This document shows, in pieces, positions 3,772 through 26,103 of a DNA stretch of 39,731 nt. Source of the stretch: a virus; IMG/VR virus record IMGVR_UViG_3300003885_000035, positions 1-39,731 of that record; one strand, given 5' to 3'. A program made the translations under genes and the position numbers. Below the pieces are notes generated by a model. That model did not search any database, was not told where the DNA came from, and saw only the letters and a list, made by a program, of their open reading frames with translations. Every line of letters begins with the position of its first letter. Position 1 is the first letter of the stretch.

Positions 3772-4196
3772 ATGAATGGACCTCGTCAAATAGTGCAAGA
3801 GAAGCAAGGCCCCCATCCGAACCCCATCCAGATTGCGAAAGCAATTACCAAAAATGGAGAAACTTATTCACGCCCACTTTCCATTCAGAAGCTTCTTCGA
3901 ATTTATCTAAAAATTTAATGAAATTAGAATGTAAAGTAGTTGAATTTTTTAGACACGGAGGGAAGGAAGTAAAACATGTTGTATTCAAACCAAAATTTAA
4001 ATGTTTAAATGGAGAAGAACTCCCTCCTTTTCAGGACACTCAAGATGTTTTCAATGTTTATCCAGGAGCGATTCCTTTATGTGTGCAAATATCTTTTGCC
4101 GATAAGAGAGGAAAACATTGTGCCAATATAAATTTTCAACAAAGTTTTCCTGGCTTCAAAAATGAAATGAGTTTTTATTTGAGGGCTGATGTGTAA
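3768..4196 (+). CDS. Hypothetical protein after the replication gene
   Basis: A 142-residue protein translationally coupled to the replication gene: ATG overlaps the upstream TGA (ATGA). The first 50 residues are Ser/Pro/Asn-rich and probably disordered. The rest alternates charged and hydrophobic residues in a beta-like pattern ending FYLRADV. No family recognised. Its place as last gene of the early operon suggests a helper in replication or takeover. Confidence 0.55.
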   Translation: MNEWTSSNSAREARPPSEPHPDCESNYQKWRNLFTPTFHSEASSNLSKNLMKLECKVVEFFRHGGKEVKHVVFKPKFKCLNGEELPPFQDTQDVFNVYPGAIPLCVQISFADKRGKHCANINFQQSFPGFKNEMSFYLRADV

Positions 4197-4353
4197 AGAA
4201 TGCGTCGATATCACGTTTTAGGCGGCACTGACGGCCTTTAAACGAACATGGACGTCCAACCTTTTAGGCTGGCTAAAATAGACGCAATTTGGCCCCTTAA
4301 AACGCAAAAATGCTAATCGATCATTTGATCAGGAAAAGTCAGTAAGAGCAACT
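4197..4353. other. Intergenic gap between convergent operons
   Basis: Early rightward genes and leftward fibre genes converge here. It holds a perfect AT-rich hairpin TTTTAG-GCTGG-CTAAAA (about 4261-4277) and a small GATCA/TGATC palindrome near 4319-4331, but no convincing T-run terminator. A reading frame from ATG 4192 is broken by two TAG codons and I do not call it. Confidence 0.4.
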
Positions 4354-8420: not shown

Positions 8421-10871
8421 TTAAGCTGTGAATCCCACTTTCATGCTGATAAGATGGCACTCTGATAAATCACCTGACTGTACAAAGTGCATAAATGGAA
8501 CAACTACATCAGCATTATCAAAAGTTAAAGCATTCGTTGCGCTAGGCGCAGCTCCGTTTATTGTATAAGTAACTACCCCGGCGCTGCTTACCAAAACACG
8601 AAGAGTGTTTGCTGTTCCATCCCCTCCCCATACATCAGTAGTATTTGTTATGGTTTGACCGCCAGAATTTAGCTCGTCCATTATCACGATTTCTGTAGCG
8701 CTTGTACCTGAATTCATTCCAATCGTTCCATAATCTGTATAGTCGGCAAACGTTGCATTGTTAGCCTCGCTTTTCCTAAATCCAATTACAAAAGGATTGC
8801 AGGCGCTCATATCTTCAATATTGAACTGAACCTCGAAAAAGAACGCAGCACTTGTACCAATTGTGAAAGCATGTCGACTATTTGTTCTTGCAGCTCCAAA
8901 GTTATATTCCACACCTTCAGTAATTACTAGATCAAGAGCGCATGATAGGCCGGTTCCATCCATTCTAGGAGCTATAATTGTTTGTCCCGCTCCAATGATG
9001 AACTGTTCCATTATAATGCCTTCTTGAAGACTCATTATGTTGACATCTCCAGTGGCACCAGTAGGAACTCCCCCTGTGTTAGCTGCCGTAGACATTACAG
9101 GAGATTGAGTGAAAGTCACGGAATCACCACTACGAGTGGTAAATTCTGATGTTATCTCTTTTACAGTTCCAGTAACTGTGATTTCTCCTGTGCCAGCTTG
9201 CAATGTTAGCGATGCTGCCCCAGTAGTAGATCCAAGCGTAACAACATTAGCAGCCGCTCCTGAAGCTAAATTCACAGTTTTTACACCCGTTGAGTTCATC
9301 ACATTAAGTGTCTGAGCTCCGGTGCCACCGCCGATTGTGATAGTTCCGGTGTTTACGCCTGTTCCAGAGATGTCATATGTGGTAGCAACATTTCCTTCCA
9401 AAGTAAAATTTCCAGTACCGCATACTAAATCGAGGCTCCCAGCGCCCGTTGCGTCCCCAATTGTGATTAAGTCCGCAGATGCAGCAGCTCCCATGTTAAT
9501 GGTTTTGGCTCCTGTACCGCCTCCTCCAATAGTGATTGTTCTTGCGCCGGTCCCTCCCGCTATATTCACAGTTCCGGTATTGACTCCTGTATTTGAAATG
9601 TCATATGTAGAAGCTACATCTCCTTCAAGAGTGAAATTCCCGGTTCCGCAAATAAGATCAAGGCTAGCTGCGTCTGTTACAGTCCCAATTGTTATTATAT
9701 TTCCAATAGCAGCGGTTCCGACATTTATTGTCTTAACGCCTGTTCCACCAGTTCCTAGATTTACGATTCTTGCACCGGTCCCTGCGCCAAATGTGCATGT
9801 TCCAGTGTTTGCTCCTGTAGCTGAGATGTTGTATGTTGAAGCGATATTCCCCTCTAAAGTGAAGTTCCCAGTTCCACATACTAAATCCAGACTGCCAGCG
9901 CCTGTTGTATCACCGATTGTGATTACATCAGCTGATGCGTCGGCGCCGATTCCGATTGTTTTTGCTCCGGTTCCTCCCGCTCCAATGTTAATTGCGCGAG
10001 CTCCAGTCCCTCCAGCAATATTTACTGTGCCAGTATTAACGCCAGTATTGGATATGTCATAAGTGGATGCGACATTCCCTTCTAAAGTGAAGTTTCCTGT
10101 TCCACATAGCAGATCTAGGGACGCAGCACCAGTGACTGTCCCAATTGTAATAGTATGAGCAGCTGCTGAAGAACCAATAGATATTGCTCTTGCAGTTGTT
10201 CCTACTCCAAGATTTACTGCACCAGCATCGTTGTCGGAGCCAAGATTAAGCGCGGTGCCCGCTGTTTCGATTGTAGCAGAAGCGCTCGCTGTCAGAAGTC
10301 CAGTAAATGTAATAGCACCAAATGTCAGAGCTCCGTTTGAATCAATGGAAGCAACTTCTACATCCCCAGTATCAGTAAAAGAAACCTTATTGGCTGCTGC
10401 TGCATCACCCATTTTCATGATGATGTCTTGGCCTACAGGAGCGGTGATAAGTAGATCAGTTCCTGCAGCGGCCGTATAAAGAGCAGACGTAACAGAAGTC
10501 GCTAGTGTAATAGCCGCATCAAGGTTAAAGGTAATTGTAGATCCAGCACCACTTGTGGTAATATTCGTTCCACCAGCAAGTGTAATATTGCCCCCCGCAG
10601 GCGAAATGGCACCCCCTCCGTCCCCTGTGAGAGTATCTACATCAGAAGCTCCAGGGCTTAGAAGGTTCCATGTAGCGCTCCCTCCGGATACAGCTCCAAG
10701 TCCATAAATGATGCCTGTAGAGGTATTAACCCATAATTGCCCAAATGCATACCCTACATCTGCAGTCGTAGGCGCTCTTGTTGATTCAATGGGTTCTGGA
10801 GCATAATCAGTAAATTGGGGATTTGGACTCCCGGATAAAACTTGTGGTTGGGTTTTTTGCTTGCGTGCCAT
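8421..10871 (-). CDS. Major repetitive tail fibre / adhesin
   Basis: An 816-residue protein, the largest in the fibre cluster. Residues 1-80 are an N-terminal domain with Pro-rich start and GYAFGQLWVNTSTGIIYGLG, likely the virion anchor. Residues 85-240 are a Gly/Ser/Thr shaft. Residues 241 to about 543 are four tandem 76-residue repeats plus a partial fifth. From about residue 580 a non-repetitive globular domain follows (EFTTRSGDSVTFTQSPV to the end), probably the receptor-binding tip. It is the first gene of the leftward fibre operon, with AGAGGATC before ATG 10871. The repeats give long false ORFs on the other strand. Confidence 0.75.
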   Translation of the reverse strand: MARKQKTQPQVLSGSPNPQFTDYAPEPIESTRAPTTADVGYAFGQLWVNTSTGIIYGLGAVSGGSATWNLLSPGASDVDTLTGDGGGAISPAGGNITLAGGTNITTSGAGSTITFNLDAAITLATSVTSALYTAAAGTDLLITAPVGQDIIMKMGDAAAANKVSFTDTGDVEVASIDSNGALTFGAITFTGLLTASASATIETAGTALNLGSDNDAGAVNLGVGTTARAISIGSSAAAHTITIGTVTGAASLDLLCGTGNFTLEGNVASTYDISNTGVNTGTVNIAGGTGARAINIGAGGTGAKTIGIGADASADVITIGDTTGAGSLDLVCGTGNFTLEGNIASTYNISATGANTGTCTFGAGTGARIVNLGTGGTGVKTINVGTAAIGNIITIGTVTDAASLDLICGTGNFTLEGDVASTYDISNTGVNTGTVNIAGGTGARTITIGGGGTGAKTINMGAAASADLITIGDATGAGSLDLVCGTGNFTLEGNVATTYDISGTGVNTGTITIGGGTGAQTLNVMNSTGVKTVNLASGAAANVVTLGSTTGAASLTLQAGTGEITVTGTVKEITSEFTTRSGDSVTFTQSPVMSTAANTGGVPTGATGDVNIMSLQEGIIMEQFIIGAGQTIIAPRMDGTGLSCALDLVITEGVEYNFGAARTNSRHAFTIGTSAAFFFEVQFNIEDMSACNPFVIGFRKSEANNATFADYTDYGTIGMNSGTSATEIVIMDELNSGGQTITNTTDVWGGDGTANTLRVLVSSAGVVTYTINGAAPSATNALTFDNADVVVPFMHFVQSGDLSECHLISMKVGFTA
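9243..10151 (-). repeat. Four 228-bp tandem repeats encoding 76-residue fibre units
   Basis: Each unit begins ITIG, contains SLDL-CGTGNFTLEG, then ASTYDIS-TGVNTGT, then GGTGAR and GTGAKTI, and ends before the next ITIG. Units 1 and 3 are most alike, and so are 2 and 4 in their openings (GDTTGAG, GDATGAG), which hints that a double unit was duplicated. A fifth, degenerate unit follows. Unit number can change by recombination, altering fibre length. Confidence 0.8.
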
Positions 10872-11173: not shown

Positions 11174-11428
11174 ATGATCGCAGAAATTATAATCGCTGTA
11201 TGTTCAGTACTTACACTAATTATTTCTATAACTAAAGTTTTAGGAAAACAATTTGGTAAAATAGAAAAACGATTTGATAAAATAGATAAAAAATTCGATA
11301 ACTTTACATTAGATTTAAAGGAGATTCAAAAAGACCTTAGGAATCTAGATGTGCGAATGAGTCGATTAGAAGGTGGTTTTACTGAAAGAGGAAATTGGGC
11401 ATCCAAAGAGAAAAAAGTAGGAGAATAA
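11174..11428 (+). CDS. Membrane/coiled-coil array protein 1
   Basis: An 84-residue protein with an N-terminal transmembrane helix (EIIIAVCSVLTLIISITKVL), a coiled coil of Phe/Ile heptads (KQFGKIEKRFDKIDKKFDNF), then RMSRLEGGFTERGNW-S and a KEKKVGE tail. The ribosome site of the next gene is made from these last codons (GTAGGAGAA), linking the array as one transcript. The membrane topology recalls small holins or accessory membrane proteins; no family is recognised. Confidence 0.65.
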   Translation: MIAEIIIAVCSVLTLIISITKVLGKQFGKIEKRFDKIDKKFDNFTLDLKEIQKDLRNLDVRMSRLEGGFTERGNWASKEKKVGE

Positions 11429-11429
11429 A

Positions 11430-11627
11430 ATGGGCTGGACAATATTTTTACAAGTAACCCTTCCTATGGCGGCAGGTTTTGGATGGATGATTATGAGAAT
11501 GGATAAAGGTTTTAATTCTTTATCCGAAAAAATAAATAAACTGGATTCAAGACTTTCTCGTTTAGAAGGATATATTGAAGGAACGGCACAATGGGTATCC
11601 AAAGATAAAAAAGCAGAGGAAAATTAA
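11430..11627 (+). CDS. Membrane/coiled-coil array protein 2
   Basis: A 65-residue paralogue of the preceding gene with one transmembrane helix (FLQVTLPMAAGFGWMIMRM), a shorter coil (NSLSEKINKLDSRL) and the shared motif SRLEGYIEG, then AQWVSKDKK. It starts one base after the previous stop. Confidence 0.65.
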   Translation: MGWTIFLQVTLPMAAGFGWMIMRMDKGFNSLSEKINKLDSRLSRLEGYIEGTAQWVSKDKKAEEN

Positions 11628-11628
11628 A

Positions 11629-11832
11629 ATGGATATATCAAGTATAATCATTGCAGTTTGTACAATAATTGGAACTGTAATTTCAGTTGCTACTGTTATA
11701 TCAAAGAAATTTTCAAGAATTGATGATAAATTAGATAAAATAGTTTTAATATTGAGTCAACAAGGACAAAGATTGTCTAAAATTGAAGGATATATTGAAG
11801 GGAAACATGATCAAATAATAGGAGAGGAATAA
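11629..11832 (+). CDS. Membrane/coiled-coil array protein 3
   Basis: A 67-residue paralogue. It starts at ATG 11629 after GAGGAAAATTAAA; an upstream in-frame start at 11575 would run inside the previous gene and is rejected. It has a hydrophobic helix (SSIIIAVCTIIGTVISVATV), a coil, and SKIEGYIEGK, ending IIGEE. Its helix resembles array protein 1 more than protein 2. Confidence 0.65.
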   Translation: MDISSIIIAVCTIIGTVISVATVISKKFSRIDDKLDKIVLILSQQGQRLSKIEGYIEGKHDQIIGEE

Positions 11833-11833
11833 A

Positions 11834-12016
11834 ATGGATTGGGTGATTTTTTGGACTATTATCGGATCAAGAACGGCAGTTGTTGGCCTTATTTATGTTA
11901 TCGTTAGAAACTTCAAAACCGATTTTAACTCGAAATTCGAATTGTTGGACAATAGGATTTTTCAACTCGCCATGGGGAAATCTTTAAAAGAAATTATGCG
12001 GGAAGAAAAAAAATAG
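11834..12016 (+). CDS. Membrane array protein 4, divergent
   Basis: A 60-residue member with a transmembrane helix (IIGSRTAVVGLIYVIVRNF) and a short coil, but without the RLEG-IEG motif of its neighbours; it ends SLKEIMREEKK. The ribosome site (ATAGGAGAGG) lies in the last codons of protein 3. It may be degenerating or specialised. Confidence 0.6.
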   Translation: MDWVIFWTIIGSRTAVVGLIYVIVRNFKTDFNSKFELLDNRIFQLAMGKSLKEIMREEKK

Positions 12017-12028
12017 GAGAATAATAAA

Positions 12029-12271
12029 ATGGATTGGATGCAAGTTCTTACTATTATTTTATCTATTCTTGTTCCAGTGTTTGCCGCATTTGGTTGGATG
12101 ATAAATAAATTAATGGAAATGAAAAAAGATATCAATATAGAATTAATGGAAATGAAAAAAGATATCAATGTAAATTTAAGAAATTTAGATAAAAGCATGT
12201 CTAGAATAGAAGGATATATTGAAGGAAAAAAACAATGGGAATCTCACGATAAAAAAATAGGAGAGGAATAA
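12029..12271 (+). CDS. Membrane/coiled-coil array protein 5
   Basis: An 80-residue paralogue: MDWMQVLTIILSILVPVFAA membrane helix, then two near-identical 11-residue coil units (LMEMKKDINIE, LMEMKKDINVN), then SRIEGYIEGKKQWES and DKKIGEE. The coil has been lengthened by a 33-bp tandem duplication still visible in the DNA. Confidence 0.65.
   Translation: MDWMQVLTIILSILVPVFAAFGWMINKLMEMKKDINIELMEMKKDINVNLRNLDKSMSRIEGYIEGKKQWESHDKKIGEE
12109..12169 (+). repeat. 33-bp tandem duplication in array gene 5
   Basis: A 28-base segment at 12109-12136 recurs at 12142-12169, a period of 33 bp (11 codons), adding one three-heptad-like coil unit in frame. It looks recent because the copies are identical over those 28 bases. 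Confidence 0.8.
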
Positions 12272-12272
12272 A

Positions 12273-12521
12273 ATGATTGAAATTGTAAATTTCATTAAAG
12301 AATTCGATCTGCATCAAATTCTCAGTATGATAGTGGTGGTGTGGATAATTACATCTTCAAGGATGAAGAAGGTAAATAAAAAAATTTCCGAGATTGATGC
12401 CGTTCTTAAAGATATTAAGATTAGCGTTCTTAATATCGATAATCGTTTGACAAGACTGGAAGGTCGTTTTGAAGAAAGAGGACAATGGGAATCTAGAAAT
12501 AAAAAAATAGGAGAAGAATAA
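12273..12521 (+). CDS. Membrane/coiled-coil array protein 6
   Basis: An 82-residue paralogue with a hydrophobic helix (ILSMIVVVWIITSS), a coil (KVNKKISEIDAVLKDIKISV) and RLTRLEGRFEERGQWES, closest to array protein 1 in this region (GFTERGNW). It ends KKIGEE, whose codons form the ribosome site for the next, truncated member. Confidence 0.65.
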   Translation: MIEIVNFIKEFDLHQILSMIVVVWIITSSRMKKVNKKISEIDAVLKDIKISVLNIDNRLTRLEGRFEERGQWESRNKKIGEE

Positions 12522-22654: not shown

Positions 22655-25600
22655 TTATGCTAGCGTACAACGCAGGTTAAAGACCCATTGGTCGTTCAAG
22701 ATACGTGGTACTTCAGCGAATTTATATCCCACTGATGCGTTCAGAGCTAAAGGTCCATCATAAATTGGTGGACGATAGATGAATTGAGAACTGTATCCAT
22801 CTTGTTCAATAGCGGCAAAAGCTTCGCGGCCACAAACAAAAATGTTGTATACAGTTGCACCTAAAAGAGAGGCATTCGCAGTTGTTGATCCAATACTAGA
22901 TAGTAAGAATCTAATGTTGGCTACAGTTCCCCATTCAGCATCTAATGTAGACTGTTGATTAGGCATTCTGTTACTTTCGGTTTCTACACCTACTGACCAC
23001 TTATGTGGCGGGGAAACCTCTTCGGATCTCCCTCTGCATGTTTCCATGCAGATCAGACTATGGCATACCGAGGAGCTTATCCTCAGTCCATCGAATTTAG
23101 TCGTTGCAGGTAATTGTTTAGTCTTGTAAAATGGAACCTTACAAAACATTTGTGAGTATTTATGAGATATTTTGCTGGGCTCTTCGATGCTGAGGGATAT
23201 GTTTCCCTTGTTCCTACAGGACATTTTAGAATTGGAATTGAAATTACTCATTCCCCAATCATCGAATCCTTGCAATCTTTCCTGGGAGGAAAGATTTATG
23301 AACATAAAAGGAATAACAAAAAAAGAAGCTGGGAATGGGCGATAGTGACCAATACCAAAGAAATGTTTAATTTTATTGAACATATCCTTCCTTTTACTGT
23401 TATAAAAACTCCTCAACTTCAAAGAATTAAAGATTATTTGGAACTCCCCAGAAAAATGAGAAAAGAGTCCCGAAAAGAGATCTCCCATCAATTGGCTAAT
23501 CTTAAAATTCCTTTGCCGCTCACCAAAAGCCATTTTGATTTCTCTCCCTCTATAATTCCTGATAATTCTTTTTATGAATGGCTCGCAGGATTTTTGGATG
23601 GAGATGGGAACCTTTGTATTTATGAATATAAAGGAACTTCTGGCAATCAAATTTTTAATTCCTGGATAGGAATTTTTAATACCCATGGAGAAGCTATTCA
23701 TTTTGTTCAACAAAGAATAAATGGAAGCATTTCTCAATATAAAGGATGCAAATATCCCGTTTGGAAATGGGTATGTAGACAAAAAGACTCGTTTAATTTG
23801 TGCGAAAAACTTCTCCCCTTTCTTGTTATAAAGAAAGAGCAATGCAAACTTATGATTGAGTACTTTCGAATAAAAGAATTCAAAACAAGAGAGCAGTCTT
23901 ATTCTTTCGATGATATCAACAAAATTAGAGAAATTATTTGTCAAATTAAACATTTAAACTCACTTTAACAATCTTCCTTCAAGTTGCCATGGGCTATGCA
24001 GCCTTTAGGTGTCCTTGATAATTATCGACGGTTTTAGAACTACCACTATTGAAATAGTTCCACTTTTGTCATTCTGTTACTTTCGGCTTCTACACCTACT
24101 GACCTAGTTCCCTAGGCGGGAAAAGCGCTTCAACTCTTCCTCCATGATTTCATTTATATTCATGGTTCGGACTGTTGCATCGTCTATTAGACGTTTTCTC
24201 GCTCAGTCTCTCAGGCTGCTTTCGCTTGCCCCTCGTCGCCCCATCGGGTTTCCGAGTCAATCAGAGAAAATTTTACATTCACACTATTGTTTATGAATCC
24301 TGCTACATTGTCTAATTGACCAATGAGATCTGTGTTTCCCAATCCGAAATATGCATCTCTGACTGGAGCGGTTCCGAATTTATCTTCCCCTTCGACTCCT
24401 GACAAAAAGCTATACGCATTGTTGCCGCGTAAAGTGCGAACGACTACATCCACATCTGAACGAGTAATCTCTGTTGGGTTGTCACCGTTTGTTCCACCAA
24501 CACAGTTGATGAATGAGGCTGTAGAAGAGAGCATATCTCTCATCAACTGGTCCTCTGTTTGCCTGCTATCTGTTACTTTTATGACCATAGGAACTAATAA
24601 TAGCCCCATGGCGGAGAGTCTTGTTATTCCTCTCTCCCATAGTTTCCTATAGGGTCGGACTATCGCATATGCCTGTTTTTTAGCATCTTGATCGCTTAGT
24701 CTCTGCGGGTCTTGACATTTATTCAGTTTGTCTGTAACATGTATATCATGCCTACAGAATTTGCTTACCTTGCTGGATATATAGATGGAGATGGATGTTT
24801 TTATTTGGGTACTACTCTTCAAAAAAATAAAGAAATAATTGTTTTTGAATATAGTATCCAAGTTCTTTCCGTCGAAAGAGAAAACCTTGAAAGCTTTCTT
24901 CCCTACGGAGGCTATATTTCTGAAAAGCCCACAAGACCGGGACATAAGACCCCTTATTGCTGGGTTCTCAAATCGTGCGCTGACTTTTGCACTAAAATAG
25001 CCAATTTTTTGATTGATAAAGAATTTCAATGCACTCAGGTGCTGACTCTTATTCAATCTATCCGTCAATCTAATTTCCAGAAGGTTGGCAATCAAACCTA
25101 TGAACACCGTCTTGAAATTATTAACAATAACCGGAGAAATAAAATGAGTGATTTGGTCACCAAAGAAAATATCGAAAGAATTAAGAATATTGGACCATCC
25201 ATAACCCCTTCCGAAGCCGACTTTGCTTATTTGGCTGGTCTTATTGAGTCCGAAGGAACATTTAGAATAAAGTCCTGGAAACCAAAAAATAGACCCAACA
25301 AAGTTTATAATTCTTCTTTGGAAATTGGAAACACTCGTTTCCCAATCTTTCCATGGTTGATGGATAGACTTGGGGGAAATATTTCTTTCTCTGATAAAAC
25401 CCAACGGAAGAGAGCTGTTGCTATTTGGTCTCTTCAATCTGAGTCTCTTTTTAAAGTTATTGAAAAAATTCATCCTTTTCTTCGCACTAGGAAGAAAAAG
25501 GTTTGTGAGTTGCTTATGGAGTTCCAAAAGACTATTTTGGACAACGGTGGAGATCGTCATTCTTTGATTTTCAAAGAAAGGATGACTTCCATTTTGGCCA

Positions 25601-26103
25601 AACGAGAATCTCTTATCGAAGAGGTTCATAAACTCAACAAAAAAGGTGTTTAAAATAATCAAGTTCCCTCGGGTTGCCATGGGCTATGCTGCCTTTAGGT
25701 TTTCCCAGTTATTCAGATCAAGTTTATTGTCCCCCATGACGTTAAGGGACACGCCAAGCCGTTGGGCTGCCTCATTGAGGACCGGGTCCTGATTTTGGAG
25801 CGTAACCTGTTCATTCAGTAGGATATACGTTCCGTAAAAATCCATCTGCGCATCGATATTAATCGCAGTTAATTGTTGTGGGGGAGGTGTAACTCCACTA
25901 TTTCCTAAAGGCACCGGTGCGGTGGCCAAAGGATTGTAACGTCTCATTCTCAACGTAGTTCCGCCGTTTCTTGCGTTTCTTGGCATGGCCTTAAGATCAG
26001 CTGGGATCTTATGGATCATGTAAGGTACCGGCACAGAGAGCAGCTTAAAGCTGAACGACTGTTGAACTGGCGCTGGAAGGACTGATGATGTCGTAATAGA
26101 CAT
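22655..26103 (-). CDS. Major capsid protein, split by three group I introns
   Basis: Exons on the minus strand: 26103-25745 (359 nt), 24565-24293 (273 nt), 24069-24054 (16 nt), 22963-22655 (309 nt). Together they make 957 nt and 318 residues. The product matches the N4-gp56 capsid family in order: MRRYNPLATAPVPLGNSG near the start, LNEAAQRLGVSL-RQTEDQLMRDML across junction 1, DLIGQLDNVAGFI-QKWNY-PNQQSTLDAEWG across junctions 2 and 3, and YRPPIYDGPLALNASVGYKF at the end. Unspliced, every exon runs into a stop within the intron, so splicing is needed to build the capsid. ATG 26103 is chosen over TTG 26109 because AAGGAAA is correctly spaced only for the ATG. Junction phases are 2, 2 and 0. Confidence 0.85.
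22964..24053 (-). ncRNA. Group I intron 3 of the capsid gene (1,090 nt)
   Basis: P1: exon GAACUAU pairs all seven bases with intron GUAGUUC, with U-G at the splice site and a 10-nt loop. P7 is GACTA (23102-23098) with TAGTC (23060-23056). A stable P9-like hairpin with a GGAAAC loop and CATG pairing follows. The 3' end is GTAACAGAATG, ending in the required G. The stretch 23983-24009 is 26 of 27 identical to intron 1 at 25673-25699 (P4-P6 region). The endonuclease gene sits in the P6 loop (ATTGTT/AACAAT flank it). Confidence 0.85.
23162..23968 (+). CDS. LAGLIDADG homing endonuclease in intron 3
   Basis: A 268-residue single-chain enzyme with two LAGLIDADG helices: YFAGLFDAEGYV (residues 3-14) and WLAGFLDGDGNL (about 141-152). 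Both keep the acidic catalytic residue. Each is followed by the usual beta-sheet DNA-binding half, and both halves contain a KT/KK-Q region after a PF-VIK segment (ILPFTVIKTPQ, LLPFLVIKKEQ), showing an internal duplication. It is coded antisense to the capsid transcript, so it needs its own promoter. The ribosome site is poor. It should cut the intronless exon junction and drive intron spread. Confidence 0.85.
   Translation: MRYFAGLFDAEGYVSLVPTGHFRIGIEITHSPIIESLQSFLGGKIYEHKRNNKKRSWEWAIVTNTKEMFNFIEHILPFTVIKTPQLQRIKDYLELPRKMRKESRKEISHQLANLKIPLPLTKSHFDFSPSIIPDNSFYEWLAGFLDGDGNLCIYEYKGTSGNQIFNSWIGIFNTHGEAIHFVQQRINGSISQYKGCKYPVWKWVCRQKDSFNLCEKLLPFLVIKKEQCKLMIEYFRIKEFKTREQSYSFDDINKIREIICQIKHLNSL
24054..24069 (-). 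other. 16-nt micro-exon of the capsid gene
   Basis: ACAAAAGTGGAACTAT lies between the 3' splice site of intron 2 and the 5' splice site of intron 3. It contributes residues (I)QKWNY, which restores the length and Tyr-Pro of the capsid family at this point (GFI-QKWNY-PNQQS). Its last seven bases form the P1 helix of intron 3, so the exon is barely longer than that splice-site recognition element. Confidence 0.8.
24070..24292 (-). ncRNA. Group I intron 2 of the capsid gene (223 nt, no ORF)
   Basis: P1: exon AUUCAU pairs with intron GUGAAU, with the U-G at the splice site and a 10-nt loop. P7 is GACTG (24208-24204) with CAGTC (24174-24170). P8 is the hairpin CGTCT-AAT-AGACG. P9 has CCATGA/TCATGG. 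The 3' end GTAACAGAATG is identical to intron 3, with TCAGTAGGTGTAGAA and CCGAAA shared just upstream. The core is complete but there is no endonuclease gene. Confidence 0.85.
24712..24740 (+). promoter_or_regulatory. Candidate promoter for the intron 1 endonuclease
   Basis: TTGACA at 24712-24717, 17 bp, TAACAT at 24735-24740, on the strand of the endonuclease. A transcript would begin near 24747, so the ATG at 24748 would be at or close to the 5' end (leaderless). This fits the absence of a Shine-Dalgarno sequence. Confidence 0.5.
24748..25653 (+). CDS. LAGLIDADG homing endonuclease in intron 1
   Basis: About 301 residues from ATG 24748. There are two LAGLIDADG motifs: YLAGYIDGDGCF near the N-terminus and YLAGLIESEGTF about 165 residues later. 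The catalytic Asp of the first is Glu in the second, which is normal in active enzymes. The gene is antisense to the capsid gene and lies in the P6 loop of the intron. It is distinct from the enzyme of intron 3 outside the motifs. An ATG at 24739 and a TTG at 24712 are upstream alternatives; the TTG is part of the likely promoter and is rejected. Confidence 0.85.
   Translation: MPTEFAYLAGYIDGDGCFYLGTTLQKNKEIIVFEYSIQVLSVERENLESFLPYGGYISEKPTRPGHKTPYCWVLKSCADFCTKIANFLIDKEFQCTQVLTLIQSIRQSNFQKVGNQTYEHRLEIINNNRRNKMSDLVTKENIERIKNIGPSITPSEADFAYLAGLIESEGTFRIKSWKPKNRPNKVYNSSLEIGNTRFPIFPWLMDRLGGNISFSDKTQRKRAVAIWSLQSESLFKVIEKIHPFLRTRKKKVCELLMEFQKTILDNGGDRHSLIFKERMTSILAKRESLIEEVHKLNKKGV

Follow-up and report, generated by a model that had tools for sequence, protein, structure and literature searches.

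Three predicted group I introns in an N4-gp56-type phage capsid gene and a stop-free strand opposite their antisense LAGLIDADG genes

The window analysed here is a viral DNA of 39,731 nucleotides (nt), taken in full from IMG/VR record IMGVR_UViG_3300003885_000035. Its minus strand carries an N4-gp56-type major capsid gene at positions 22655–26103, which consists of four exons and three group I introns, designated I1, I2 and I3. It is very probable (about 0.93) that these are self-splicing group I introns splitting one capsid gene, with I1 and I3 being of the mobile type. Three introns had already been proposed by an original prediction made from the sequence letters of the window, and its coordinates proved right. 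The predicted parts of the gene, in the direction of transcription, are as follows; R1 is a custom covariance model described below, and family sites are numbered along the capsid coding sequence.

25745–26103, minus strand: capsid exon 1, 359 nt, 93.6% amino acid identity to an intronless relative
24566–25744, minus strand: group I intron I1, 1179 nt, in codon 117, phase 2 (family site nt 350), P1 of 7 bp, core 35.2 bits
24613–24730, minus strand: 3' part of the I1 catalytic core (P7, P3', P8, P9), located with R1
24293–24565, minus strand: capsid exon 2, 273 nt, 81% amino acid identity across the matched stretch
24070–24292, minus strand: group I intron I2, 223 nt, without a homing endonuclease gene (HEG), family site nt 623, core 124.1 bits, E 1.6e-30
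24118–24274, minus strand: I2 catalytic core P3–P9, located with R1
24054–24069, minus strand: microexon 3, 16 nt, completing an I codon and then encoding QKWNY, which is conserved in intronless relatives
22964–24053, minus strand: group I intron I3, 1090 nt, family site nt 639 (common to loci L003 and L243), P1 of 9 bp, core 53.7 bits
23010–23162, minus strand: 3' part of the I3 catalytic core, located with R1; Rfam Intron_gpI 24 bits, sub-threshold
22655–22963, minus strand: capsid exon 4, 309 nt including the stop codon, 91% amino acid identity to an intronless relative

The joins were set by alignment to intronless relatives. In IMG/VR, exon 1 has 548 relatives, and the majority of the best 80 are uninterrupted genes of about 315–320 residues. 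Ten intronless relatives, 78–94% identical to the first one, indicate joins between GVSL and RQTED, between GFI and QKWNY, and between QKWNY and PNQQ. Identical six junctions, including the 16-nt microexon and agreeing with the original prediction, were obtained with a spliced-alignment script, which used a protein profile of these ten relatives and was supplied only with a preference for U before the intron and G at its end. The spliced product comprises 957 nt, i.e. 318 codons and a stop codon. The claim that removal of the introns restores a single N4-gp56-type capsid protein of 318 residues is borne out by the exact frame and by a match of TIGR04387 (capsid_maj_N4, NCBIfam) to the intronless relative L004, with 145.5 bits against a cut-off of 60. 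PHROG 1357, a major head protein, was matched as well (4.8e-30). If the 5' site of I2 were paired with the 3' site of I3, the 16 nt between them would be skipped and the frame broken. When the window is compared with six relatives, the capsid gene is the best conserved one, with 80–93% amino acid identity, followed by the portal gene (63–73%) and the large terminase gene (62–69%). An AlphaFold model of the capsid protein, based on ten similar sequences, reached a pLDDT of 28 and was not used.

The exon-intron boundaries show the features of group I introns. P1 is formed by UGUCCCU/GGGGACA in I1 (7 bp), by AUUCAU/GUGAAU in I2 (6 bp), and by UGGAACUAU/GUAGUUCUA in I3 (9 bp), each with a terminal U.G pair and a 10-nt loop. 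The original prediction had given 6–7 bp for all three helices; this applies to I1 and I2, as do the U.G end and the loops, while the P1 of I3 is longer and is formed by the last 9 nt of microexon 3. The predicted P7 pairs GACTA/TAGTC, GACTG/CAGTC and GACTA/TAGTC were found as described, and so were the 3' ends, which contain AAGTAACAGA followed by the final G; those earlier joins had been made without the script. Among 119 inferred introns of the capsid family, 71% reach a P1 score of at least 7, compared with 1.6% of shuffled controls. The last 35 nt of I2 and I3 (GGTCAGTAGGTGTAGAARCCGAAAGTAACAGAATG; 24070–24105 and 22964–22998, minus strand) are nearly identical though the cores differ, which suggests either common descent or exchange.

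The catalytic core was examined in an alignment of 24 compact family introns, I2 among them. In the classical helices P3, P4, P5, P6, P7, P8 and P9, 93% of the cells are paired, compared with 43–47% when the partner is slid. Changes on both sides were seen in 37 of 44 core pairs, compensatory changes occur in all helices of the I2 class, and P3 alternates between CUC/GAG and GGG/CCC from one intron to another. None of 500 shuffles reached any of five pairing measures. The P3 and P7 helices of I1 and I3 were read from the alignment, giving the P3/P7 pseudoknot core in these introns too. The covariance model R1 was trained on 22 introns, none of them from the window. Over the 39.7-kb window it gives exactly three matches, all on the minus strand: I2 with 124.1 bits (E 1.6e-30), I3 with 53.7 bits (E 1.6e-12) and I1 with 35.2 bits (E 9e-8), the E-values being rough. 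No R1 core match was found in 41 intronless loci (448 kb). R1 also recovers, with 34.1 bits and E 1.7e-8, the capsid intron of the cluster J mycobacteriophage LittleE, the splicing of which was proven by reverse transcription PCR (RT-PCR) and N-terminal sequencing (PMC3706429).

The original prediction had named a covariance-model search with Rfam Intron_gpI as a check on the core; all three introns are matched by R1, whereas the Rfam model stays under its cut-off. In the window, Intron_gpI yields a single sub-threshold match, to I3, with 24 bits (cut-off 50), and no match for I1 or I2; other relatives score 24–30 bits. The proven LittleE intron likewise remains under the cut-off, with 30.7 bits, and for this reason the Rfam cmscan was dismissed as an arbiter. 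The gathering cut-off is a library threshold and not a defining property of group I introns. Standard Rfam annotation therefore overlooks the introns of the family, which does not make them doubtful. A SNORD98 match in the cmscan of the window was set aside as chance.

In each of the two long introns, a LAGLIDADG gene runs antisense to the capsid gene:

24712–25653, plus strand: putative LAGLIDADG HEG, antisense in I1, likely start ATG 24751, Pfam LAGLIDADG_1 2.1e-8, ten aligned relatives
23162–23968, plus strand: putative LAGLIDADG HEG, antisense in I3, Pfam LAGLIDADG_1 1.7e-5, with relatives

The I1 HEG encodes the motifs GYIDGDG and GLIESEG with both catalytic acids present, and the I3 HEG encodes AGLFDAEG and AGFLDGDG. 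Each thus has two motifs with acidic residues, and PDB profile matches over both genes include I-MsoI, I-CreI, I-HjeMI and I-AniI, the latter two being the matches of the I3 HEG. Eleven further long introns are located at site 350 besides I1. An antisense HEG is present in every examined long intron of this site and in both other introns at site 639. Scans of IMG/VR with single HEG sequences gave no matches, while a scan with the alignment of the I1 endonuclease gave 80 loci. In 74 of these, the HEG lies in or beside a capsid gene of the family and is always antisense. In the 65 loci searched for cores, all 137 core matches are on the strand opposite to the HEG. Antisense placement is not new, since the LAGLIDADG gene of LittleE is also on the bottom strand (PMC3706429). 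Both HEGs of the window would encode active homing endonucleases, and I1 and I3 most likely spread by homing.

According to the proposed mechanism, each intron would fold around a guanosine-binding P3–P9 core, and the 5' exon would be recognised through the P1 ending in U.G. Two transesterifications would then excise the intron, so that the four exons, including the one of 16 nt, are joined to encode the 318-residue protein. The HEGs of I1 and I3 sit in a peripheral insertion (P6 region), and their products would cut intronless capsid alleles, leading to homing. I2 has no endonuclease gene. While the junctions, the covarying core and the antisense HEGs can be read directly from the aligned sequences, splicing in vivo is what we infer from them. 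Several points weigh against this interpretation. The evidence for splicing consists entirely of sequence comparisons among metagenomic contigs, and all these introns are sub-threshold in Rfam. Covariation was counted on an alignment that had partly yielded the structure, and the intron ends given by the script are not independent evidence, because the U/G rule had been supplied to it. The P10 pairing is weak by eye. Finally, I1 has the lowest core score, because its 5' half is 1 kb away from its 3' half.

The capsid gene is a recurrent site of intron insertion throughout the family. The sample consists of 203 distinct capsid genes, 187 of them full length, and as they were picked by similarity, the intron-bearing fraction is not a census. 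The script called introns in 58 full-length genes. Introns with a good P1 number 86, at 34 sites in 54 of the 203 genes, and 83 of the 86 have AGTAAYA close to the 3' end. Several genes contain three or four introns. The maximum of five was found in locus L297 (4904–8191), where each intron has a core match; this 39.8-kb contig is assigned to a Parachlamydia bin of metagenome-assembled genomes (MAGs). The MAG bins of relatives contradict each other with regard to the host, naming Simkaniaceae, Parachlamydia, Methanomicrobiales and Methylococcaceae. A 15-nt exon occurs in L277, between sites 23 and 38. Candidate introns at sites 265–299 and 354–377, as well as most of the eight in L299, have no P1 at the chosen joins and were left out of the 34 sites; many of them have R1 core matches.

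In 46 intron-bearing loci, all 112 checked R1 matches fall within the 88 kb, out of 349 kb, that the capsid gene occupies. In 20 whole records, a single R1 match lies outside the capsid gene, close to where the portal gene begins in record G011. This outlier core is located at about 4118–4270 of locus L308 (8117–8270 of G011), directly before the continuing portal frame, and a sense HNH-like open reading frame (ORF) is found at L308 3379–3975. Recurrence and near-restriction to the capsid gene are thus evident in the sampled sequences. The original prediction called three introns in one capsid gene unusual and named other genes as the usual places; as a claim of rarity by location this was too strong. 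Capsid introns are known from LittleE and Tuc2009 (PMC3706429), and introns are also present in many relatives of the capsid gene of the window. As the best conserved gene, the capsid gene would be the most stable target and therefore repeatedly colonised, and target conservation would be the simplest reason for the hotspot.

Two other explanations of the locus were considered. Metagenome assembly could have inserted unrelated DNA into the capsid gene, as every sequence is a metagenome contig and three contigs (L024, L010 and L187) end at the capsid intron sites nt 543, 831 and 774, respectively. Contig ends of this kind are expected if intron-plus and intron-minus alleles share one sample. 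However, diverged introns are found at the identical nucleotide in many independent metagenomes (at least 12 genes for site 350), with compensatory base changes and exact restoration of the reading frame. Judged by the sequences, this recurrence already refutes an assembly artefact, to which next to no credence is given. Degenerate introns that no longer splice, with a capsid gene that is dead or made in pieces, would be conceivable given that intact capsid genes exist elsewhere in the family, yet this is highly improbable: the core pairs, P1 helices and 3' ends in the window are all intact, and the four exons encode a protein with 87–93% identity to relatives, a degree of conservation that a dead essential gene would not keep.

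The two antisense genes and the family-wide hotspot go beyond the original prediction, and so does a third observation, a stop-free frame on the capsid strand opposite to the HEGs. In the window, this frame was read from the ORF list and the frame table:

24211–25680, minus strand: stop-free capsid-sense frame opposite the I1 HEG, continuing into exon 2
22655–23953, minus strand: stop-free capsid-sense frame opposite the I3 HEG, continuing into exon 4

The codons TTA, CTA and TCA are the reverse complements of the stops TAA, TAG and TGA, and they are nearly absent from antisense HEGs. In 39 such genes, TTA accounts for 19 of 237, CTA for 3 of 702 and TCA for 3 of 500, in total 25 of 1,439 codons, compared with corresponding fractions of 0.68, 0.18 and 0.30 in the other genes of the window. 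The I1 HEG contains none of the three, with about 16 being expected. As a result of this avoidance, the capsid-sense frame in the register of the HEG has 0–3 stops, compared with 12–22 and 22–41 in the two remaining frames. Fourteen introns were examined, and in each of them the frame is open for 290–570 codons and has a start codon near its beginning. The avoidance of codons that place stops on the capsid strand is apparent in these counts.

Such avoidance could be a codon-usage or mutational quirk of the endonucleases, since all of them are related LAGLIDADG genes. This is very unlikely in view of the control codons, which are used normally: ATA (0.29 vs 0.28), ACA, GCA, GGA and AGA, and also CCA, AAA, GAA and CAA. 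Only GTA is somewhat low in the antisense HEGs (0.17 vs 0.32). Moreover, the sense-oriented HEGs of sister introns and all genes of the window use TTA, CTA and TCA freely, and in six HEG relatives outside capsid genes, which are short and distant, the three codons make up 26–63% of the leucine and serine codons. The long open frame with its early start codon could alternatively encode a real second protein, such as a maturase. At each level of HEG identity below 60%, however, the amino acid identity of the capsid-sense frame is 1.04 times the value predicted from the HEG alone. Codons at conserved HEG residues are saturated, and the sense first position is the most divergent (0.51). A sense-strand protein was rejected on the identity test and retains a low probability, slightly above that of a codon quirk. 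As the amino acids of the open frame are not conserved, selection would therefore act on openness and not on a product.

Tentatively, and with somewhat less than even confidence, the antisense HEGs in phage capsid introns may be selected for a stop-free host-gene strand and not for its protein, with the open strand allowing ribosomes to cross the unspliced intron. Ribosomes moving along it would have to avoid stops, for example so that RNA polymerase stays escorted and Rho-type polarity in the late operon is avoided, or so that a 900-nt insertion does not disturb folding; a role of this kind is possible, again short of even odds. Ribosome passage is favoured because openness without sequence conservation matters only to a translating ribosome. 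In line with this, shorter introns are without long ORFs, and sense ORFs are frequent in other long introns of the family. The frame entering from the upstream exon runs into a stop at +4 to +67 in each intron with such an open strand, in agreement with the in-frame stop known from group I introns. T4 intron splicing needs translation of the upstream exons (reviewed in PMC3073962 and PMC3984707). Three observations count against ribosome passage: the open frame is in no constant frame with either exon, no strong Shine-Dalgarno sequence was seen before the open-frame starts in the window, and ribosomes inside the core reportedly inhibit td splicing (PMC3073962).

These results indicate that group I introns of a widespread phage family can have their main insertion target in the capsid gene, of all virion genes the one most heavily needed; 34 insertion sites are supported by P1. 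Surveys based on capsid genes, like gene callers, will break such genes up or overlook them, and the standard Rfam cut-off misses the introns. The avoidance of stop-complement codons provides a clean signature, with which a long-standing question becomes directly testable: how mobile introns can exist where transcription and translation are coupled. If strand openness is indeed selected, mobile introns in translated bacterial genes would pay a translation toll that shapes codon usage on the other strand.

Elsewhere in the window, tandem small ORFs (about 60–84 amino acids) are found at 11174–12521 on the plus strand. Most of them have a hydrophobic N-terminus and end in a shared motif like RLEGxxEGxxQWxSxxKKxxEE, and at least five look paralogous. 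A putative tail or fibre protein with many SLDLxCGTGNFTLEG-type repeats is encoded at 8421–10871 on the minus strand.

Capsid introns, genes with three introns and antisense HEGs each have a precedent; for the intron density, the capsid restriction and the constraint on strand openness, none was found in the open-access PMC papers searched. LittleE is similar in that its major capsid gene is interrupted by a group I-type intron with a LAGLIDADG gene on the opposite, bottom strand, and differs in having one intron, another capsid gene and a GC-rich sequence. Its endonuclease gene contains one TTA and one CTA, and the complementary frame has two stops in 178 codons, which is too little to test for avoidance. 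In Staphylococcus phage Twort (Landthaler and Shub 1999, cited in PMC3073962), three similar group I introns lie in one gene and exon skipping occurs, which short exons invite. Both gene and phage are different there, and the window has antisense HEGs in two of three introns and the 16-nt exon between I2 and I3. The polymerase and terminase genes of Bastillevirinae contain up to three group I introns per gene, comparable to the several found here; these are not capsid genes, and the word capsid is absent from PMC11878797. Faustovirus E12 has a major capsid gene with 12 introns, five of which are called group I, and exons down to 13 bp (PMC6247863). It is, however, an amoebal giant virus with an unrelated capsid and GIY-YIG endonucleases, and the remaining seven introns are described as spliceosome-like. 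These seven (PMC6247863) most often begin with AA and end with TG, as many introns of the present family do, and may belong to group I with scores too low for the Rfam threshold. The myxomycete nuclear rDNA introns Dir.S956-2 and Dsq.L2066 have the HEG opposite to the ribozyme strand (PMC9548176), as in the window, but they encode His-Cys endonucleases and are located in rDNA, which is untranslated.

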